Source: Norana najaformis
Taxonomy: Eukaryota > Annelida > Clitellata > Crassiclitellata > Hormogastridae
Reading direction: 5' to 3'
Length of the DNA stretch: 64,000 bases
NCBI GenBank assembly: GCA_964023275.1
Contig: OZ029915.1
Location: forward strand, 17,771,775 to 17,835,774
In this document: positions 228-60,826 of the stretch, one piece after another
Layout of the letters: each line of letters opens with the position of its first letter
How positions within the stretch are numbered: position 1 is the first letter of the stretch
Translations under genes and position numbers: made by a program
The notes under the pieces: generated by a model
What the model was told of the DNA's origin: nothing
The model's input: the letters and a program-made list of their open reading frames with translations, nothing else
Database searches by the model: none

Positions 228-552
228 TTGTTGCCTCAAATGTTAGAACTGTTTCTGGGTATATTTGACCTGCTGATTCCAGAAAAGGCACCAATTTTCT
301 CCCAGCAGGTCTAGTTTTCGAGATATAGAACATTATCCCATATACCAGTCCTTGCCTCTGCTCGCCCATAAAACATAAGGCTATAGCTATAATTATGTAG
401 TGCTCAATTTATTATGTGATACACTAAATAAACATAATAATACAAATACTTAAAAGAAAATGGTAGTACCTGAAACTGTACTTATATGATACCAAACAGA
501 ACAAGTTTGTTATAAAAATTTCAAGTCATTCGACACCGAAGAAGCTCCTTTT

Positions 553-2229
553 CTACGATTTCCGAGTGTGGCATCTGCCGGAACAATCGCGCATAATATT
601 CCAGCAATAGTCTGCCATCATGTGTGCATCCCATCTTCCTTGATATCGATTTTCCATTGTTTTGATGTCTTGGTGAAATCTTTCACCTTGCTCTTCGCTG
701 AAGTCACCAAGATTCTCTGGAAAGCGATCTAAGTGACTGTGGAGATAATGGACTTTAATGCTCATGTTGCAGCCAAGCTTGTTGAAATGAAGAAGCATAT
801 CCTCTACTAGTTGTGCATAATTGTCTGCCTTCTTGTTGCCAAGAAAATTTTTAGTTACAAGAACAAAGGAAGACCAGGCACAAGATTCGATTTCATTCAT
901 TGATGGTATGAAAAGTGGGTCATTCATAAGTTGCCTGATCTGTGGACCATCGAAGATTCCAGCCTTCAATTTTTCCATTGTAATTCCTGGTAACTTGTGT
1001 ACTATGTATTCGAAGCATGAACCTTCTTTATTCAAAGCCCTGACAAATTGTTTCATCAGGCCTAGCTTTATATGTAGTGGTGGCAGTATGATCCTATCTC
1101 GTGCCACCAAAGATTCCTTGATTACATTTTGAGCTCCAACCACCATGTCTTTCCTCGAAGGCCAATCTTTTCTTGTCCAATGTTCATGCTTGGCTCTACT
1201 GTCCCAAAGACACAAAAAGCAGGGATACTTTGTGTAGCCACTTTGTTGATCAAGGAGGAAATTTACCATCTTCAAGTCTACACAAATTACCCATTGATGT
1301 TCTTTGTATTTTATCTTTTCCAGTACTAAAGAGATGGCATTGTACTCTTCTTTCATCCTGGTGGAGTGACCGATTGGAATAGAACCAAATTTGTTGCCGT
1401 TATTTAAAAGCACACATTTCAGACTACGTTTTGAACTGTCGATAAAAAGACGCCACTCATCTGGGCTGTAATCCGACAGACCAATTTTCTTCAATAAGTT
1501 GCTGATGTCATTACAGAATACTAGGTTGTTGTCTTCGGTAAAGAATGGCAGCAAATCCTTTTCTCTGTTTCTATAAATTGTAATTTTTGTTCCAGGCTGA
1601 AGTGCATTCTTTTCCTTTAGTCTGGACGCAAGCAATTCAGAGGACTCTTTGGAAAGATTTAAGTCCCTGATCAGATCACTCAACTCTTTTTGGTCAAAAC
1701 GTTCACTGTGTGAAGTTGATTGGAAATCACTGTCACTGCCCCCACTTTCTTCACTTTCGTCATCTTGTCCGATATTGGACATGCAAGTCTCATCGTCTGA
1801 GAGCTGAGGTAGTTCGCGAAAAGGTGGAACTGGTACAATATCCGAATGCGGAACAGGTCTCCTGGCTGAAGGTATATCAGGGTAAGACAACTTGTGACGA
1901 TTATTTCGATTGATGCCTATGATATTAACCATACAAAAGTAACAGTCGTCGAAGTGGTTTATCTGTTCCCTCCAAACCATCGGTACACCAAATTTCAGGC
2001 AGCTTCTCTTTCCAATTGTCCAGTGGCGCAATTGTTCAATACAAGTTTTGCATACTGCATGAGGAGCCCATTGCTTATCTTGATCTCCAAGTTTGACACC
2101 AAAATAACCTACATATGCTCTTTTTACAAACTCAGAAATCGGTTTCCTGTTTGCTTTTAGTGTGTATTCCCCACAAATGTAGCAGAATATGTCTGGATGG
2201 TTAATGCAGCTCCGTCTGGAAGTAGCCAT
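553..2229 (-). CDS. ORF-element protein, copy 1 (558 aa, intact)
   Basis: A single uninterrupted 558-codon ORF, homologous over its whole length to the proteins at 13751-15442 and 58929-60613. Visible features: an N-terminal CYICGE Cys pair, WAPH followed by a CxxC pair, and a DDCYFC pair. After an acidic, Ser-rich linker come WRLFIDSS, VDLK, CFLCLWDSR, LPPLHIKLGL and EEQGERFHQD, ending with a YQGRW...ADYCW block. I recall many uncharacterised proteins of this type in invertebrate genomes, but no named family. The spacing of Asp (FIDSS), Asp (VDLK) and Glu (QGERF) suggests an RNase H-like fold, hence a possible nuclease or transposase; that role is inferred. The ATG is the first in frame and aligns with the starts of the other copies. 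The protein is clearly diverged from the 13.7-kb copy but has no stop, so it has been under selection until recently or is a different subfamily. Confidence 0.85.
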   Translation of the reverse strand: MATSRRSCINHPDIFCYICGEYTLKANRKPISEFVKRAYVGYFGVKLGDQDKQWAPHAVCKTCIEQLRHWTIGKRSCLKFGVPMVWREQINHFDDCYFCMVNIIGINRNNRHKLSYPDIPSARRPVPHSDIVPVPPFRELPQLSDDETCMSNIGQDDESEESGGSDSDFQSTSHSERFDQKELSDLIRDLNLSKESSELLASRLKEKNALQPGTKITIYRNREKDLLPFFTEDNNLVFCNDISNLLKKIGLSDYSPDEWRLFIDSSKRSLKCVLLNNGNKFGSIPIGHSTRMKEEYNAISLVLEKIKYKEHQWVICVDLKMVNFLLDQQSGYTKYPCFLCLWDSRAKHEHWTRKDWPSRKDMVVGAQNVIKESLVARDRIILPPLHIKLGLMKQFVRALNKEGSCFEYIVHKLPGITMEKLKAGIFDGPQIRQLMNDPLFIPSMNEIESCAWSSFVLVTKNFLGNKKADNYAQLVEDMLLHFNKLGCNMSIKVHYLHSHLDRFPENLGDFSEEQGERFHQDIKTMENRYQGRWDAHMMADYCWNIMRDCSGRCHTRKS

Positions 2230-2279
2230 AACCTTAAGGATGTTCGCATCTGAGGAATTAAATGACTAACCTAAAAAAT

Positions 2280-2385
<106 letters not shown>

Positions 2386-2412
2386 CTATACAACTGACTA
2401 TTATTTTTATGA

Positions 2413-13074: not shown

Positions 13075-13539
13075 ATGTCACGTAAGTTGACTGATACTGC
13101 TCGTGACTTGGGCGTTATTTTTGATTCTACCATGTCTCTCACAAACTATGTAAATGGTATTTGTAAATCATCATACATGTATATTCGTGACATACGCAGA
13201 ATTAGGCGTTATGTCCCCATGTCTTCTAGAATGTCATTGGCTAATGCATTGATCTCCAGTCGCCTTGACTATTGTAACTCCATTCTTGTTGGTATCACAG
13301 ACAAACATGCAGAAACTCCGATGAGTTCAGAACTCCATAACTAGAGACATAACAAATACATCAAAATATGAGCATATTACTCCTGTGGTTAAATCTTTAC
13401 ATTGGTTTCCCGTTCAGCAAAGGATTTGTTTCAAATTAGGACTTACAGTTTATAAAACATTGAACTACGGCCAACCACAATACTTAAAATCAGTCCGTAT
13501 TCCCAAGACTTATCATTATTCTGCAAGGTCGTCTGATTG
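13075..13539 (+). pseudogene. CR1-like LINE reverse transcriptase, C-terminal part, 5' half of a split copy
   Basis: Translations read ARDLGVIFDSTMSL, then RLDYCNSILVGI, then (after a frameshift near 13310) VKSLHWFPVQQRICFKLGL and YLKSVRIPKTYHYSARSSD. These are the thumb and C-terminal blocks typical of CR1/Jockey-type LINEs. The reading frame is cut at 13539 by the ORF element and resumes at 15631. The copy is 5'-truncated: no endonuclease or RT core is visible upstream. Confidence 0.85.
13477..13539. repeat. Left 63-bp target-site duplication of the 13.5-kb element
   Basis: Matches 15568-15630 with one mismatch (GTCCGTATT versus GTCCTTATT). It is 63 bp of LINE coding sequence, including KTYHYSARSSD, which an uninterrupted LINE has once. 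Confidence 0.9.
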
Positions 13540-13750
13540 CACTGGACAACAAATTTTTACAAAAGTCATGTTACTGAAATGAAATTAGTCAGTTCTTATC
13601 AATTTGTATGTGCTGAACACGAATATGACAGTGAAAATGCCGAATTGGCTCTAGTTTTTTTGTAATCTGAAATGAAGTAATTTTATATTGCACAATGCAT
13701 GCCAATAGTGATACACTTACAGTTAATATTTGTAAAAACCAGGTCATAGA

Positions 13751-15442
13751 CTAGTTCTTAGATTTTTTTGCCTGTCTCTTGTACAGCTGTTCGGGAGCAT
13801 CTCTGCGGAGTGTCCAGCAGTAGTCAGCCAACATTGTAGTGGACCATTTTCCCTGGTACCTTTGCTCCATTGTTGCGATATCTTGATGAAAACGTTCGCC
13901 ATGTTCGTCACTAACCATACCACAGTTGTCAGGGAAGAAATCCAGATGGGAATGAAGGAAATGCATCTTCAGAGACATATTGCAGCGAAATTTCTGATAC
14001 TGCTTGAGCATGTCTTCTACTAGTTCCTTGTAGTTTTCTGCCCTAACATTCCCCAGAAAGTCTGTAGACACTAGACGAAAAGCATTCCATGCTTGTTTCG
14101 CATCACCCTCCAGCAAGTTGTTGAAGCGGTCATCTTTGAAGAGTTCTCTAATCTGAGGACCCACAAAAACTCCCTCTTTAATCTTTGCTTCGCTGAGTCG
14201 AGAGAATTTTTCATGCAGGTATCGGAAAGCTGGCGAAGTGCGGTCCATGGCTTTCACGAAGTTCTTCACCAAACCTAGTTTGATGTGAAGGGGTGGTAGT
14301 AGGATTTTGTGAGCCTCGACCAGAGCTGGGTGCTGGATATTCTTCTGTCCAACTGCCATGTTTTGTCTGGGAGTCCATTCCTTCCGCACGTAGTGCAACT
14401 CTCTTGCTCGGCTATCCCACTCACACAAGAAACACATATATTTTGTATATCCTTGCTGCAGTCCCATTAAAATGGCAACTACCTTCAAATCACCACACAG
14501 GTGCCATTTGTACCTGTTATAGTCAATGGAATGCAGTAGCTGTTTTAGGTTATCGTATGTCTCTTTCGTGTGGACAGCATGCGCTAATGGAATAGATGGA
14601 AGACGGTTTCCATTGTGCAAAAGCACAGCCTTAAGACTCAGTGTTGAAGAGTCTACGAAGAGTCTCCATTCTTGTGGGTCATGAGTGATCTGTAAGGCAT
14701 TCATGAGGTCGTCAATATTGGAACAGAATACCAGATTACCTTCCTTCATAAAGAAAGGTTCCAACTGCTGATGGCGCTTTCTATATGAAGTAATTGTGAC
14801 ATCTTCTTCTAGAAGATTCCATTGTTGGAGTCTTGATCCTAGCAATTCTGCCTTGTTTTTGGATAAGTCCAAATCACGAACAAGGTCATTTAGTTCTTCC
14901 TGTGTTATTCTGTGTGGGGTTGATGATGCACCACAGTGAAAATCGGGATCACTGCACGCTGACGGACCAGGAGAAGAACATGTCGGCTCACCCTTGTCCT
15001 CGTCAGATGAATCAAGGAAAATATATTCTGCTGGAGGTTCTGGAATAGGAAGTCCATCACCATGTGGAACTGGTCTCAATGCTGACGGAATGTTTGGGTA
15101 GACTATTGTCGACTTCTTTTGCTTCGTTATTCCACCGGAAAGAGGAGGAACCAAGCAGAAGTAACAGTCATCTACGTGGTTGCTTTGCTCTCTCCACACC
15201 ATGGGAACTGCAAACGGCATTGATGGTCTTTTGCCATTCAACCACTGTGAAAGCTGTGTTGTACATGTAGCACAGCATATATGCGGGGCCCATGGCTTGT
15301 CTTGGTCACCAACCTTGCATTCGAAGTAAGCATGATATGCCTTCTTGACTTGACAAGTGATACTTTTCTTCTGGTTGGCAAATGTCACTTCCCCACAAAT
15401 GTAACAAAAGTTGTCCACAGTATTTACGCACTTCCGAGGCAT
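13751..15442 (-). CDS. ORF-element protein, copy 2 (563 aa, intact)
   Basis: Full-length 563-residue protein. Residues visible: C13/C16 (CYICGE); H54, C57/C60; H89; C93/C96 (DDCYFC), a likely N-terminal zinc-binding region recalling treble-clef domains; an acidic Ser-rich linker at about 140-180; D264 in WRLFVDSS followed by LSLKAVLLHNGN, the look of an RNase H first strand and hairpin; D318 in CGDLKVVAILMG; C337/C340 plus D343 in CFLCEWDSR; LPPLHIKLGL (383-391); HFLHSHLDFFP (494-504); and D512/E513/E516 in SDEHGERFHQ, the best candidate for the last acidic residue. A Lys/Arg-rich tail could serve nuclear import. A TATA box lies 115 bp upstream of the ATG. The nuclease/transposase role is inferred from layout and mobility, not from a family match. 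Confidence 0.88.
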   Translation of the reverse strand: MPRKCVNTVDNFCYICGEVTFANQKKSITCQVKKAYHAYFECKVGDQDKPWAPHICCATCTTQLSQWLNGKRPSMPFAVPMVWREQSNHVDDCYFCLVPPLSGGITKQKKSTIVYPNIPSALRPVPHGDGLPIPEPPAEYIFLDSSDEDKGEPTCSSPGPSACSDPDFHCGASSTPHRITQEELNDLVRDLDLSKNKAELLGSRLQQWNLLEEDVTITSYRKRHQQLEPFFMKEGNLVFCSNIDDLMNALQITHDPQEWRLFVDSSTLSLKAVLLHNGNRLPSIPLAHAVHTKETYDNLKQLLHSIDYNRYKWHLCGDLKVVAILMGLQQGYTKYMCFLCEWDSRARELHYVRKEWTPRQNMAVGQKNIQHPALVEAHKILLPPLHIKLGLVKNFVKAMDRTSPAFRYLHEKFSRLSEAKIKEGVFVGPQIRELFKDDRFNNLLEGDAKQAWNAFRLVSTDFLGNVRAENYKELVEDMLKQYQKFRCNMSLKMHFLHSHLDFFPDNCGMVSDEHGERFHQDIATMEQRYQGKWSTTMLADYCWTLRRDAPEQLYKRQAKKSKN

Positions 15443-15556
15443 TACTGTTCTGTATTGTATCTAAATGGATAAAGTAATAATAGTTTTATAAAACAGTAAC
15501 TTAAACTGTCTCGCACAAAGTCTGTAATATTGTAAATGCTCAACCGTTCCGACTCG

Positions 15557-15565
15557 CTTTATATA
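15557..15565 (-). promoter_or_regulatory. TATA box of copy 2
   Basis: TATATAAAG on the minus strand, 115 bp before the ORF start and two bases from the element edge at 15567. It is retained although upstream promoter DNA present in copy 3 is missing here. Confidence 0.6.
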
Positions 15566-15567
15566 GT

Positions 15568-15630
15568 ACAATACTTAAAATCAGTCCTTATTCCCAAGAC
15601 TTATCATTATTCTGCAAGGTCGTCTGATTG
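15568..15630. repeat. Right 63-bp target-site duplication of copy 2
   Basis: Second copy of 13477-13539. The LINE reading frame continues from it into SLVIHWALGRTVLGKLAFSV. Confidence 0.9.
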
Positions 15631-26175: not shown

Positions 26176-26504
26176 ATACACTATTATAGTAATGAATTAT
26201 TCTTCAGTTAGCGTTGAGTTCTATTTTGTTACAATCGTAGTGGTTGTTCAAAAGGAGCTATTTTAGAATGGATTTTTAAATAGCAGTAAATGTAGTAAAT
26301 GATTGTTGCTATGTAAAATATGTCTAACAAATTCTTTGTAGTACTGATGATATTTCATGGATTTCGCCATAGATCAAAACAAACAGACATGCATCAACAT
26401 TACATTAGATATGGGTTTAAGTTGCTATTGGTTTTCGGTTATTTCTTGTTTTTTTTTTCATAGTCTATTCAGTATCGTTATTTTGCATTCGCTTCAATCT
26501 GTTA

Positions 26505-26663
26505 CACTAGACAACAAATTTTGACAAAAGTTTTGCCTCCTGGCAAATTTTTGGTGATAATAATAGACCGCTTCAAGCTTAAAACAAATATAATTTCAGA
26601 TTGACAGTGTCATGTAGGAATTTGTCAGGAAGCAAAACTTTTGAAAAAATGTGTTGTCTAGCG
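26505..26663. mobile_element. 159-bp miniature inverted-repeat element with CACTAGACAAC ends
   Basis: Left end CACTAGACAACAAATTTTGA and the complement of the right end CGCTAGACAACACATTTTTT match inward for about 45 bp with a few mismatches (shared CAAAAGTTTTGC and TCCTG). Left-end bases 1-26 match the constant end of the ORF element at 13540 (CACTGGACAACAAATTTTTA). No ORF. I could not define a target duplication: the flanks are CTGTTA and TTCATA. Confidence 0.8.
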
Positions 26664-26745
26664 TTCATATGCGATTGAAAATCAAAGACTGTGGATCTTC
26701 TACGAGTTAACGCTACACTACAAATTAAGTACGTCACAACTTAAG
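26664..26745 (-). repeat. R1 repeat fragment, inverted
   Basis: Minus-strand reading: ATTTGTAGTGTAGCGTTAAC, TCGTAGAAG and CAGTCTTTGATTTTC, matching R1 at 19094-19143. It abuts the miniature element at 26505-26663, which may have inserted at its edge. Confidence 0.55.
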
Positions 26746-47190: not shown

Positions 47191-47994
47191 TGCCATATAT
47201 TTCAGGTCTAATGAGAACGTGGTCTTACACTTATATTAGGAATCACAGAACAGAATCGGACAACTGAAAGATTAGGCCCAGAATATCACCTCTGTAAAGC
47301 GTTCTCTTGTGTCATATTTCCAGCAGCTTCAACCTAGCAACTTCGCTATTTTATTCTCTGCATGTGTAGGTGTTGGATTCTTTAATTATGTTGGTCTCTT
47401 CGAGACCATGCCACTCCTCTAGTCACGGCCACGTGGAAACCATTAAAATAGAATAGAATAGATGAGATCAGATTAGATTAGATCAAGTTGCAATAACTAA
47501 AAAATCTAATGGATGTTTAGCGATGGCCTTTGAAGTCAACAGCCTGTTTCCAATGCGCTAGAAACTGTGACGACGGCGGCCAGTGAGTGAATTGCCATAT
47601 ATTTCAGGTCTAATGAGAACGTGGTCTTACACTTATATTAGGAATCACAGAACAGAATCGGACAACTGAAAGATTAGGCCCAGAATATCACCTCTGTAAA
47701 GCGTTCTCTTGTGTCATATTTCCAGCAGCTTCAACCTAGCAACTTCGCTATTTTATTCTCTGCATGTGTAGGTGTTGGATTCTTTAATTATGTTGGTCTC
47801 TTCGAGACCATGCCACTCCTCTAGTCACGGCCACGTGGAAACCATTAAAATAGAATAGAATAGATGAGATCAGATTAGATTAGATCAAGTTGCAATAACT
47901 AAAAAATCTAATGGATGTTTAGCGATGGCCTTTGAAGTCAACAGCCTGTTTCCAATGCGCTAGAAACTGTGACGACGGCGGCCAGTGAGTGAAT
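47191..47994. repeat. Exact 402-bp tandem duplication
   Basis: 47191-47592 and 47593-47994 appear identical base for base, from TGCCATATATTTCAGG to GCCAGTGAGTGAAT. Each unit includes a GATTAGATTAGAT stretch and the last LINE-like tail. No ORF. No divergence means either very recent origin or an assembly artefact. Confidence 0.95.
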
Positions 47995-58449: not shown

Positions 58450-58717
58450 CTCAATAGTACGTTGAATAATTTGCTATCGACCACCTTATTACCAGCCTGA
58501 TGACTTGGAATACTTGTTAGAATTGCTGAAATGCATCTCTTCTCTCTTAGATGGACGGCATGATGTTGTGTTATTGGGAGATTTCAATTTACCACTAATA
58601 AATTGGAGCTACTACTCTGGCCCCTCTCATGACTTTTTTGATCATGTAAATGACAGTTGTTTTTTTTCAGTTTGTAGCGCTACTCAGTCACGACCCAAAC
58701 CAGGAAGCCAATAATTA
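58450..58717 (+). pseudogene. LINE endonuclease fragment, 5' side of the split copy
   Basis: IICYRPPYYQPDDLEYLLEL, then DVVLLGDFNLPLINWSYYSG and VCSATQSRPKPGSQ: the exonuclease-endonuclease-phosphatase fold of LINEs, with the catalytic GDFN motif. The DNA is cut at 58717 by the ORF element and continues at 60827. Confidence 0.8.
58669..58717. repeat. Left 49-bp target-site duplication of copy 3
   Basis: Identical to 60778-60826. It is LINE coding DNA (VCSATQSRPKPGSQ). Confidence 0.92.
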
Positions 58718-58928
58718 CACTGGACAACAAATTTTTACAAAAGTCATGTTACTGAAATGAAATTAGTCAGTTCTTATCAATTTGTATGTGCTGAACACGA
58801 ATATGACAGTGAAAATGCCGAATTGGCTCTAGTTTTTTTGTAATCTGAAATGAAGTAATTTTATATCGCACAATGCATGCCAATAGTGATACACTTACAG
58901 TTAATATTTGTAAAAACCAGGTCATAGA

Positions 58929-60613
58929 CTAGTTCTTAGATTTTTTTGCCTGTCTCTTGTACAGCTGTTCGGGAGCATCTCTGCGGAGTGTCCAGCAGTA
59001 GTCAGCCAACATTGTAGTGGACCATTTTCCCTGGTACCTTTGCTCCATTGTTGCGATACCTTGATGAAAACGTTCGCCATGTTCGTCACTAACCATACCA
59101 CAGTTGTCAGGGAAGAAATCCAGATGGGAATGAAGGAAATGCATCTTCAGAGACATATTGCAGCGAAATTTCTGGTACTGCTTGAGCATGTCTTCTACTA
59201 GTTCCTTGTAGTTTTCTGCCCTAACATTCCCCAGAAAGTCTGTAGACACTAGACGAAAAGCATTCCATGCTTGTTTCGTATCACCCTCCAGCAAGTTGTT
59301 GAAGCGGTCATCTTTGAAGAGTTCTCTAATCTGAGGACCCACAAAACCTCCCTCTTTGCTTCGCTGAGTCGAGGGAATTTTTCATGCAGGTATCGGAAAG
59401 CTGGCGAAGTGCGGTCCATGGCTTTCACGAAGTTCTTCACCAAACCTAGTTTGATGTGAAGGGGTGGTAGTAGGATTTTGTGAGCCTCGACCAGAGCTGG
59501 GTGCTGGATATTCTTCTGTCCAACTGCCATGTTTTGTCTGGGAGTCCATTCCTTCCGCACGTAGTGCAACTCTCTTGCTCGGCTATCCCACTCACACAAG
59601 AAACACATATATTTTGTATATCCTTGCTGCAGTCCCATTAAAATGGCAACTCCCTTCAAATCACCACACAGGTGCCATTTGTACCTGTTATAGTCAATGG
59701 AATGCAGTAGCTGTTTTAGGTTATCGTATGTCTCTTTCATGTGGACAGCATGCGATAATGGAATAGATGGAAGACGGTTTCCATTGTGCAAAAGCACAGC
59801 CTTAAGACTCAGTGTTGAAGAGTCTACAAAGAGTCTCCATTCTTGTGGGTCATGAGTGATCTGTAAGGCATTCATGAGGTCGTCAATATTGGAACAGAAT
59901 ACCAGATTACCTTCCTTCATAAAGAAAGGTTCCAACTGCTGATGGCGCTTTCTATATGAAGTAATTGTGACATCTTCTTCTAGAAGATTCCATTGTTGGA
60001 GTCTTGATCCTAGCAATTCTGCCTTGTTTCTGGATAAGTCCAAATCACGAACAAGGTCATTTAGTTCTTCCTGTGTTATTCTGTGTGGGGTTGATGATGC
60101 ACCACAGTGAAAATCGGGATCACTGCACGCTGACGGACCAGGAGAAGAACATGTCGGCTCACCCTTTTCCTCATCAGATGAATCAAGGAAAATATATTCT
60201 GCTGGAGGTTCTGGAATAGGAAGTCCATCACCATGTGGAACTGGTCTCAATGCTGACGGAATGGTTGGGTAGACTATTGTCGACTTCTTTTGCTTCGTTA
60301 TTCCACCGGAAAGAGGAGGAACCAAGCAGAAGTAACAGTCATCTACGTGGTTGCTTTGCTCTCTCCACACCATGGGAACTGCAAACGGCATTGATGGTCT
60401 TTTGCCATTCAACCACTGTGAAAGCTGTGTTGTACATGTAGCACAGCATATATGCGGGGCCCATGGCTTGTCTTGGTCACCAACCTTGCATTCGAAGTAA
60501 ACATGATATGCCTTCATGACTTGATAAGTGATACTTTTCTTCTGGTTGGCAAATGTCACTTCCCCACAAATGTAACAAAAGTTGTCCACAGTATATACGC
60601 ACTTCCGAGGCAT
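58929..60613 (-). pseudogene. ORF-element protein, copy 3, frameshifted
   Basis: Matches the copy 2 protein from its start to about residue 420. A 7-bp deletion near 59355 (the AATCTTT of copy 2 at 14180-14186) then shifts the frame, adding some 34 unrelated residues before a stop at 59249. The original frame resumes and runs to the same C-terminus at 58929. The lost part holds the SDEHGERFHQ block, so the product should be inactive. One lesion only: inactivation is recent, or happened at or after insertion. Confidence 0.92.
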
Positions 60614-60725
60614 TACTGTTCTGTATTGTATCTAAATGGATAAAGTAATAATAGTTTTATAAAACAGTAACTTAAACTGTCTCGCAAAGTCTGTAATATT
60701 GTAAATGCTCAACCGTTCCGACTCG

Positions 60726-60765
60726 CTTTATATAGTACACTGCTGACGTCATCTTACGTCAGCAG
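60726..60765 (-). promoter_or_regulatory. TATA box plus palindromic CRE pair of copy 3
   Basis: On the minus strand TTACGTCA-type and TGACGTCA sites (60744-60761 on plus coordinates) precede TATATAAAG (60726-60734) by about 10 bp. CTGCTGACGT and ACGTCAGCAG form a 10-bp stem with a six-base loop at 60740-60765. The layout is that of a CREB/ATF-responsive core promoter for the ORF starting at 60613. Confidence 0.55.
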
Positions 60766-60777
60766 CCGACTGGCTGT

Positions 60778-60826
60778 AGTTTGTAGCGCTACTCAGTCAC
60801 GACCCAAACCAGGAAGCCAATAATTA
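60778..60826. repeat. Right 49-bp target-site duplication of copy 3
   Basis: Exact second copy of 58669-58717. LINE DNA resumes directly after it. Confidence 0.92.

Follow-up and report, generated by a model that had tools for sequence, protein, structure and literature searches.

Locus and host sequence of copy A

The window, i.e., the whole 64,000-nucleotide stretch analysed here, contains an ORF-bearing element inserted into a LINE and flanked by a long direct repeat. This insertion, hereafter copy A, comprises the following features:

13477..13539, no strand: left copy of the 63-bp target duplication, in LINE coding sequence (from the repeat comparison and the joined reading frame)
13540..15567, minus strand: copy A, a Chapaev3 element truncated at its 5' end, equivalent to reference bases 326-2353 of 2353
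13540..13560, minus strand: intact 3' terminal inverted repeat of copy A, ending ...AAATTTGTTGTCCAGTG in gene sense, the plus strand beginning CACTGGACAACAAATTT
13751..15442, minus strand: transposase ORF of copy A, 563 aa, with a predicted RNase H-like fold (from the ORF and a structure model)
15558..15565, minus strand: TATATAAA, a putative TATA-like box, promoter-like by eye, directly inside the truncated 5' end of copy A
15568..15630, no strand: right copy of the 63-bp duplication, its first 3 bp being microhomology with the element

The two repeat copies (13477-13539 and 15568-15630; family D4) are identical at 62/63 positions, and the flanks of copy A joined through one repeat form an open LINE frame across the site (frame 1: ...YGQPQYLKSVRIPKTYHYSARSSDCLSL...), both as reported in the initial annotation. 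With this joined 550-bp sequence as a query, the best 40 of 6368 first-look genome candidates span 542-553 bp, so none of them has room for a second 63-bp copy; uninterrupted LINEs carrying the segment twice, which had been named beforehand as adverse to a target duplication, do not occur among these 40. In the four LINE matches aligned from this set, the segment is single, at 90-94% (4/4). Since LINE matches in the same genome carry it once, the 63-bp repeat of copy A arrived with the insertion. No A-tail was seen at the insert, and the earlier description of a mobile element in a LINE, with a genuine 63-bp target duplication and without an A-tail, is upheld in all these parts.

The 3' end of copy A sits exactly at the host junction, and the next triplet is CAA, not TWA. 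At the other junction, an internal break point of the element is joined to host DNA 63 bp away through 3 bp of microhomology, the ACA at 15568-15570 (plus strand), which is common to the repeat and the element and leaves the junction ambiguous by 3 bp.

Identity of the element and its transposase

Full copies of the element are 2353 bp long, with CACTGG...CCAGTG termini, and encode a 563-aa transposase of the RAG1/Transib fold. The structure model of this transposase has a predicted RNase H-like core (pLDDT 83) and matches RAG1 and Transib; RAG1 is the recombinase of antibody genes, i.e., of V(D)J recombination. In a 35-row alignment, D264, D318, E513 and E516 are invariant, E513 and E516 both being candidates for the catalytic E, and the protein is, as modelled, a DDE/RNase H-like transposase with an acidic triad.

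The transposase motifs given for Chapaev3 in the available part of the source, C(2)C, LH and H(4)H (PMC4079192), are found here as C337xxC340, L385-H386 and H494xxxxH499, all invariant in the same alignment. The termini of the full copies (CACTGGTCAACA...TTGTCCAGTG) have the 5'-CAC ... GTG-3' form of this group, and its 3-bp TWA duplication, with A before and T after, is also present, though not in every copy. Classified from sequence, by termini, TWA duplication and transposase motifs, the element is a new member of the known Chapaev3 group. It does not fall within Transib in the narrow sense, for which the available part of PMC4411706 gives a duplication length of 5 bp: the usual match is 3 bp, and exactly 5 bp was found in 0/55 copies. 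Searches of Pfam, PHROGs and PDB sequences with the transposase gave no significant match, and no relatives were found in viral contigs, prokaryote genomes, phages or plasmids at the sensitivity of those scans.

Copies with both ends

The matches listed included 77 ORF copies, and the flanks were read for 73 of them (57 whole loci and 16 end pieces), the other four being listed as full length. Both ends are present in 55 of the 73 copies and one end is lacking in 18. The flanks of the 55 both-ended copies match over 0-4 bp, plus one of 6 bp; this longest exact match (L016) lies within a short TTA repeat. The match is at least 3 bp in 33/55 and less than 3 bp in 22/55. Among the 44 both-ended copies tested first, 23 are flanked by identical triplets, mostly TAA and TTA, against 19% in mismatched pairs, and A is found at -4 in 31/44 and T at +4 in 29/44.

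An identical 3- or 4-bp duplication is absent in 19 of these 44 copies (L001-L057), and in several of the 19 the 3' end is separated from the matching triplet by 2-4 additional bases, frequently TTA or ATA. A reading in which full copies without a clean 3-bp duplication carry an offset or filler bases was considered and dropped, as 13/19 fit an offset of 1-4 bases against 45% of mismatched pairs.

Copies lacking one end

The truncated set (n = 19) is made up of the 18 ORF copies that lack one end and of a second truncated copy in the window, copy B, in which the frame is split. Sampling thus rested on the transposase frame, copy B apart, and break points within the frame are invisible. The features of copy B are:

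58669..58717, no strand: left copy of the perfect 49-bp target duplication that flanks copy B; by eye (frame 0), the sequence here resembles a LINE
58718..60777, minus strand: copy B, a second 5'-truncated copy, equivalent to reference 285-2353, its transposase frame split in two ORFs
60778..60826, no strand: right copy of the 49-bp duplication, its first 5 bp being microhomology with the element

Copy B is 98.6% identical to copy A over 2035 bp. It also contains, at 60740-60765 (reference 297-322), a perfect hairpin with 10-bp arms, CTGCTGACGT-CATCTT-ACGTCAGCAG, located just upstream of the TATA-like box and missing from copy A through truncation.

Duplications of 6-78 bp flank 17/19 truncated copies, with lengths of 6, 13, 13, 14, 16, 21, 24, 31, 32, 33, 36, 42, 48, 49, 52, 63 and 78 bp; a duplication of at least 6 bp is therefore seen in 17/19 truncated copies vs 1/55 both-ended ones (Fisher 1.3e-13). 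Thirteen of the 17 are 5'-truncated and four are 3'-truncated (L018, L025, L047 and L074), the duplication of the latter adjoining the exact 5' end. Two members of the 17 are weak: the duplication of L045 is just 6 bp long, and that of L036 (13 bp) falls within a TTATTGG repeat, its junction containing about 8 unmatched bases; without them, duplications remain in 15/19. No duplication was detected in the truncated L031 and L062. By eye, L062 adjoins a palindrome, which could hide one. The matches were scored without gaps, and those of L001, L018, L047, L074 and L080 include one or two mismatches; altogether, the duplicate copies differ at 7/571 bases, somewhat above the 0.2-0.3% of element copies against the column majority.

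Intact and broken junctions

The exact terminal base is retained at the intact end in 15 of the 17 duplicated truncated copies, L005 lacking the last 1 bp and L066 the last 7 bp of the 3' end. The triplet beside the exact end is TWA in 11/15, the others being TAG, TAG, CAA (copy A) and TAT, and this preference resembles that of the full copies. Since these termini are exact and mostly lie beside TWA, as in full copies, the intact end points to a join made by the transposase.

The broken end displays 1-7 bp of microhomology between host and element in all 17 duplicated truncated copies. Their sum is 44 (n = 17), compared with 11.6 (sd 4.0, maximum 33 in 100,000 draws) in a simulation with random break points within the same non-coding parts. 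In a strict set of 12, which leaves out L018, L036, L045, L074 and L086, the sum is 27 vs 7.4 (sd 3.1, maximum 24 in 100,000 draws), and 12 junctions treated with a wider break-point range gave 31 vs 7.9. The break points in the element vary between copies, with the exception of reference base 2169, shared by the 3'-truncated L018 and L047, the flanks of which differ. The use of pseudo-ends at the broken side was considered and rejected by inspection, since the break points vary and the duplications are long.

The new part of these results is that, across the family, loss of an end goes together with a long duplication and microhomology; by titles and abstract starts, no description of this link for such transposons was found in the open-licence literature.

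Copy C and other elements of the window

A second family related to Chapaev3 and three further repeats were found in the window:

178-227 and 2413-2462: 50-bp perfect direct repeats around copy C (from direct-repeat comparison)
228..2412, minus strand: copy C, a member of a second Chapaev3-like family (49% protein identity to the first family), truncated at both ends, its 558-aa frame being intact
26504..26664, no strand: diverged miniature element whose 46-bp inverted repeats resemble the 3' end of copy A (from sequence similarity)
47191-47490 and 47593-47892: 300-bp direct repeat, 100% identical, spaced 402 bp

For the family of copy C, 78 matches were scored as the best of 6391 candidates, and the 3' end is present in 9/10 copies read; copy C is without that end and without its 5' part. 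It was considered as a third one-ended copy of the same kind, which was rejected, as the 3' end of its family shows that both ends are missing. The 50-bp repeats combine an end from a different Chapaev-like element with TAAT, and the 5' side of copy C runs into an ATC microsatellite. Copy C, which has a duplication but no proper end, may have been captured as a fragment, and suggests that staggered breaks can take up fragments lacking proper ends. The inverted repeats of the miniature element are 87% complementary and start ACACTAGACAACAAATTTTG; from its sequence, it is probably an old non-autonomous relative.

Origin of the long duplications

Long duplications are confined to copies lacking an end, and therefore copy A looks like a host-repaired one-ended insertion by an ordinary DDE transposon. 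We give a probability of about 0.68 to the reading that copy A arose through the insertion of a Chapaev3 cut-and-paste transposon by one end only, with repair by the host. The transposase would have attached a single end of the element to a single strand of the target at a TWA-like site, while the other element end was missing or left unjoined. Synthesis from the open 3'-OH of the target, or fill-in of a staggered break, might then have run over tens of bases, after which microhomology-mediated end joining would have closed the broken end of the element onto the new host end, so that the copied host stretch would be the "target duplication." We infer these steps of transfer and repair from the junction sequences. 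One-ended transfer followed by fill-in and microhomology joining is the best reading, as it would account for the exact end, the duplication and its length, both polarities and the microhomology. Indeed, the pattern of copy A recurs in other copies, at other sites and in both polarities. The observations that stand against it are L031 and L062, the weak L045 and L036, copy C, which does not fit it, the 7/571 mismatches, and the CAA triplet of copy A.

A broader proposition is that a RAG1-fold transposase regularly performs true single-ended transposition in an animal germ line, where an unpartnered end would be joined, the free target 3'-OH would prime the synthesis of tens of bases and end joining would close the gap. 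We regard this as tentative, a possibility rather than a probability; the junction data fit a true single-ended event and a lariat that lost its second end alike.

The main rival to one-ended insertion is the interrupted repair of an inserted full copy, in which the transposase would cut one end, the element end would be resected, the host end would be extended on an empty homologue, with copying of the bases next to the site, and the two would be joined by microhomology. The product would be the same, with one exact end, a long duplication and microhomology, and differences between duplicates such as those counted here are what a homologue template could give. Nevertheless, this explanation requires an empty homologue every time, and it should often lead to target loss or to no duplication, whereas 17/19 copies are duplicated, all over at most 78 bp; it is therefore considered unlikely. 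Less probable still is an origin with no transposase step, in which pieces of the transposon would have been caught in unrelated staggered double-strand breaks and these closed by fill-in and end joining. The available part of PMC8355091 documents small duplications that arise when staggered breaks are filled in, copy C is truncated at both ends within a 50-bp repeat, and L066 has a 21-bp duplication although 7 bp are missing from its remaining end, but the exact terminus in 15/17 copies and the adjoining TWA in 11/15 would then be a coincidence.

LINE-mediated retroposition of transposon RNA, with its 5' truncation and variable duplications, would suit the 14/19 truncated copies (A, B and 12 more) that have the 3' end but no 5' end; even so, we give it very little credence. 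The constant 3' end with a tail and the exclusive 5' truncation expected of a LINE-mediated insertion are contradicted by the four duplicated 3'-truncated copies with exact 5' ends; a tail is absent, the 3' end is the very terminus of the transposon DNA, and several copies include DNA upstream of the TATA-like box. Finally, a transposase normally making staggered cuts of 50-60 bp, the earlier reading, would suit the 63 bp of copy A, the 49 bp of copy B and the 50-bp repeat around copy C in one window, but is ruled out as the normal mode by the 55 both-ended copies, with matches of at most 6 bp and of at least 3 bp in 33/55, and has almost no chance of being correct.

Accordingly, the initial annotation needs revision where it treated the long duplication as a property of the element: the maximum is 6 bp in the 55 both-ended copies, the long ones belong to end-lacking copies (17/19), and short duplications in most copies of the family, which it had named as adverse to its own reading, are what was found, with a longest exact flank match of 6 bp. 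From its alternative of widely staggered nicks or a new mechanism, breaks with a wide stagger still explain copy A best, but the element does not look like a new class.

Significance and comparison with known systems

Under the one-ended reading, this genome preserves a natural series of insertions that a relative of the V(D)J recombinase apparently left half-finished, their junctions being exact, and the series suggests how cells close a one-sided strand transfer. The signature of one exact end, a long duplication and microhomology can be tested for the same accident by RAG or by transposon vectors, and annotators are warned that a long "target-site duplication" can be the mark left by a repair rather than a family trait.

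For the Chapaev3 group of Chapaev transposons (Merrow, Garfield, Conan), the available part of PMC4079192 describes the same CAC...GTG termini, 3-bp TWA duplication between A and T, length of 2.3 kb and transposase of about 560 aa with C(2)C, LH and H(4)H; the difference lies in the one-ended copies with 6-78 bp duplications found here, whereas the duplication analysis there took full or nearly full copies. The RAG1, Transib and ProtoRAG transposases differ by their 5-bp duplication, instead of 3 bp here, and show 12-14% sequence identity to our transposase in these three rows. Single-ended, or "lariat," events of piggyBac (PMC3952818, which also cites single-ended Mos1 events) likewise have one inverted repeat integrated at a proper target and the other not, but come from cell assays and, in the part of that paper available, without reported long duplications, whereas the present cases are genomic with repaired second junctions. 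For the zebrafish Dada-tL_DR (PMC3706591), the authors also propose cleavage and rejoining of one end only; in contrast to our copies, the 12 copies there have both termini, with different tRNA genes flanking most, and the available part reports no long duplication. Similarly, the small tandem duplications from filled-in staggered breaks, as described in the available part of PMC8355091, are shorter than 100 bp and arise after fill-in and joining, although from nuclease-made breaks and with no transposon involved.
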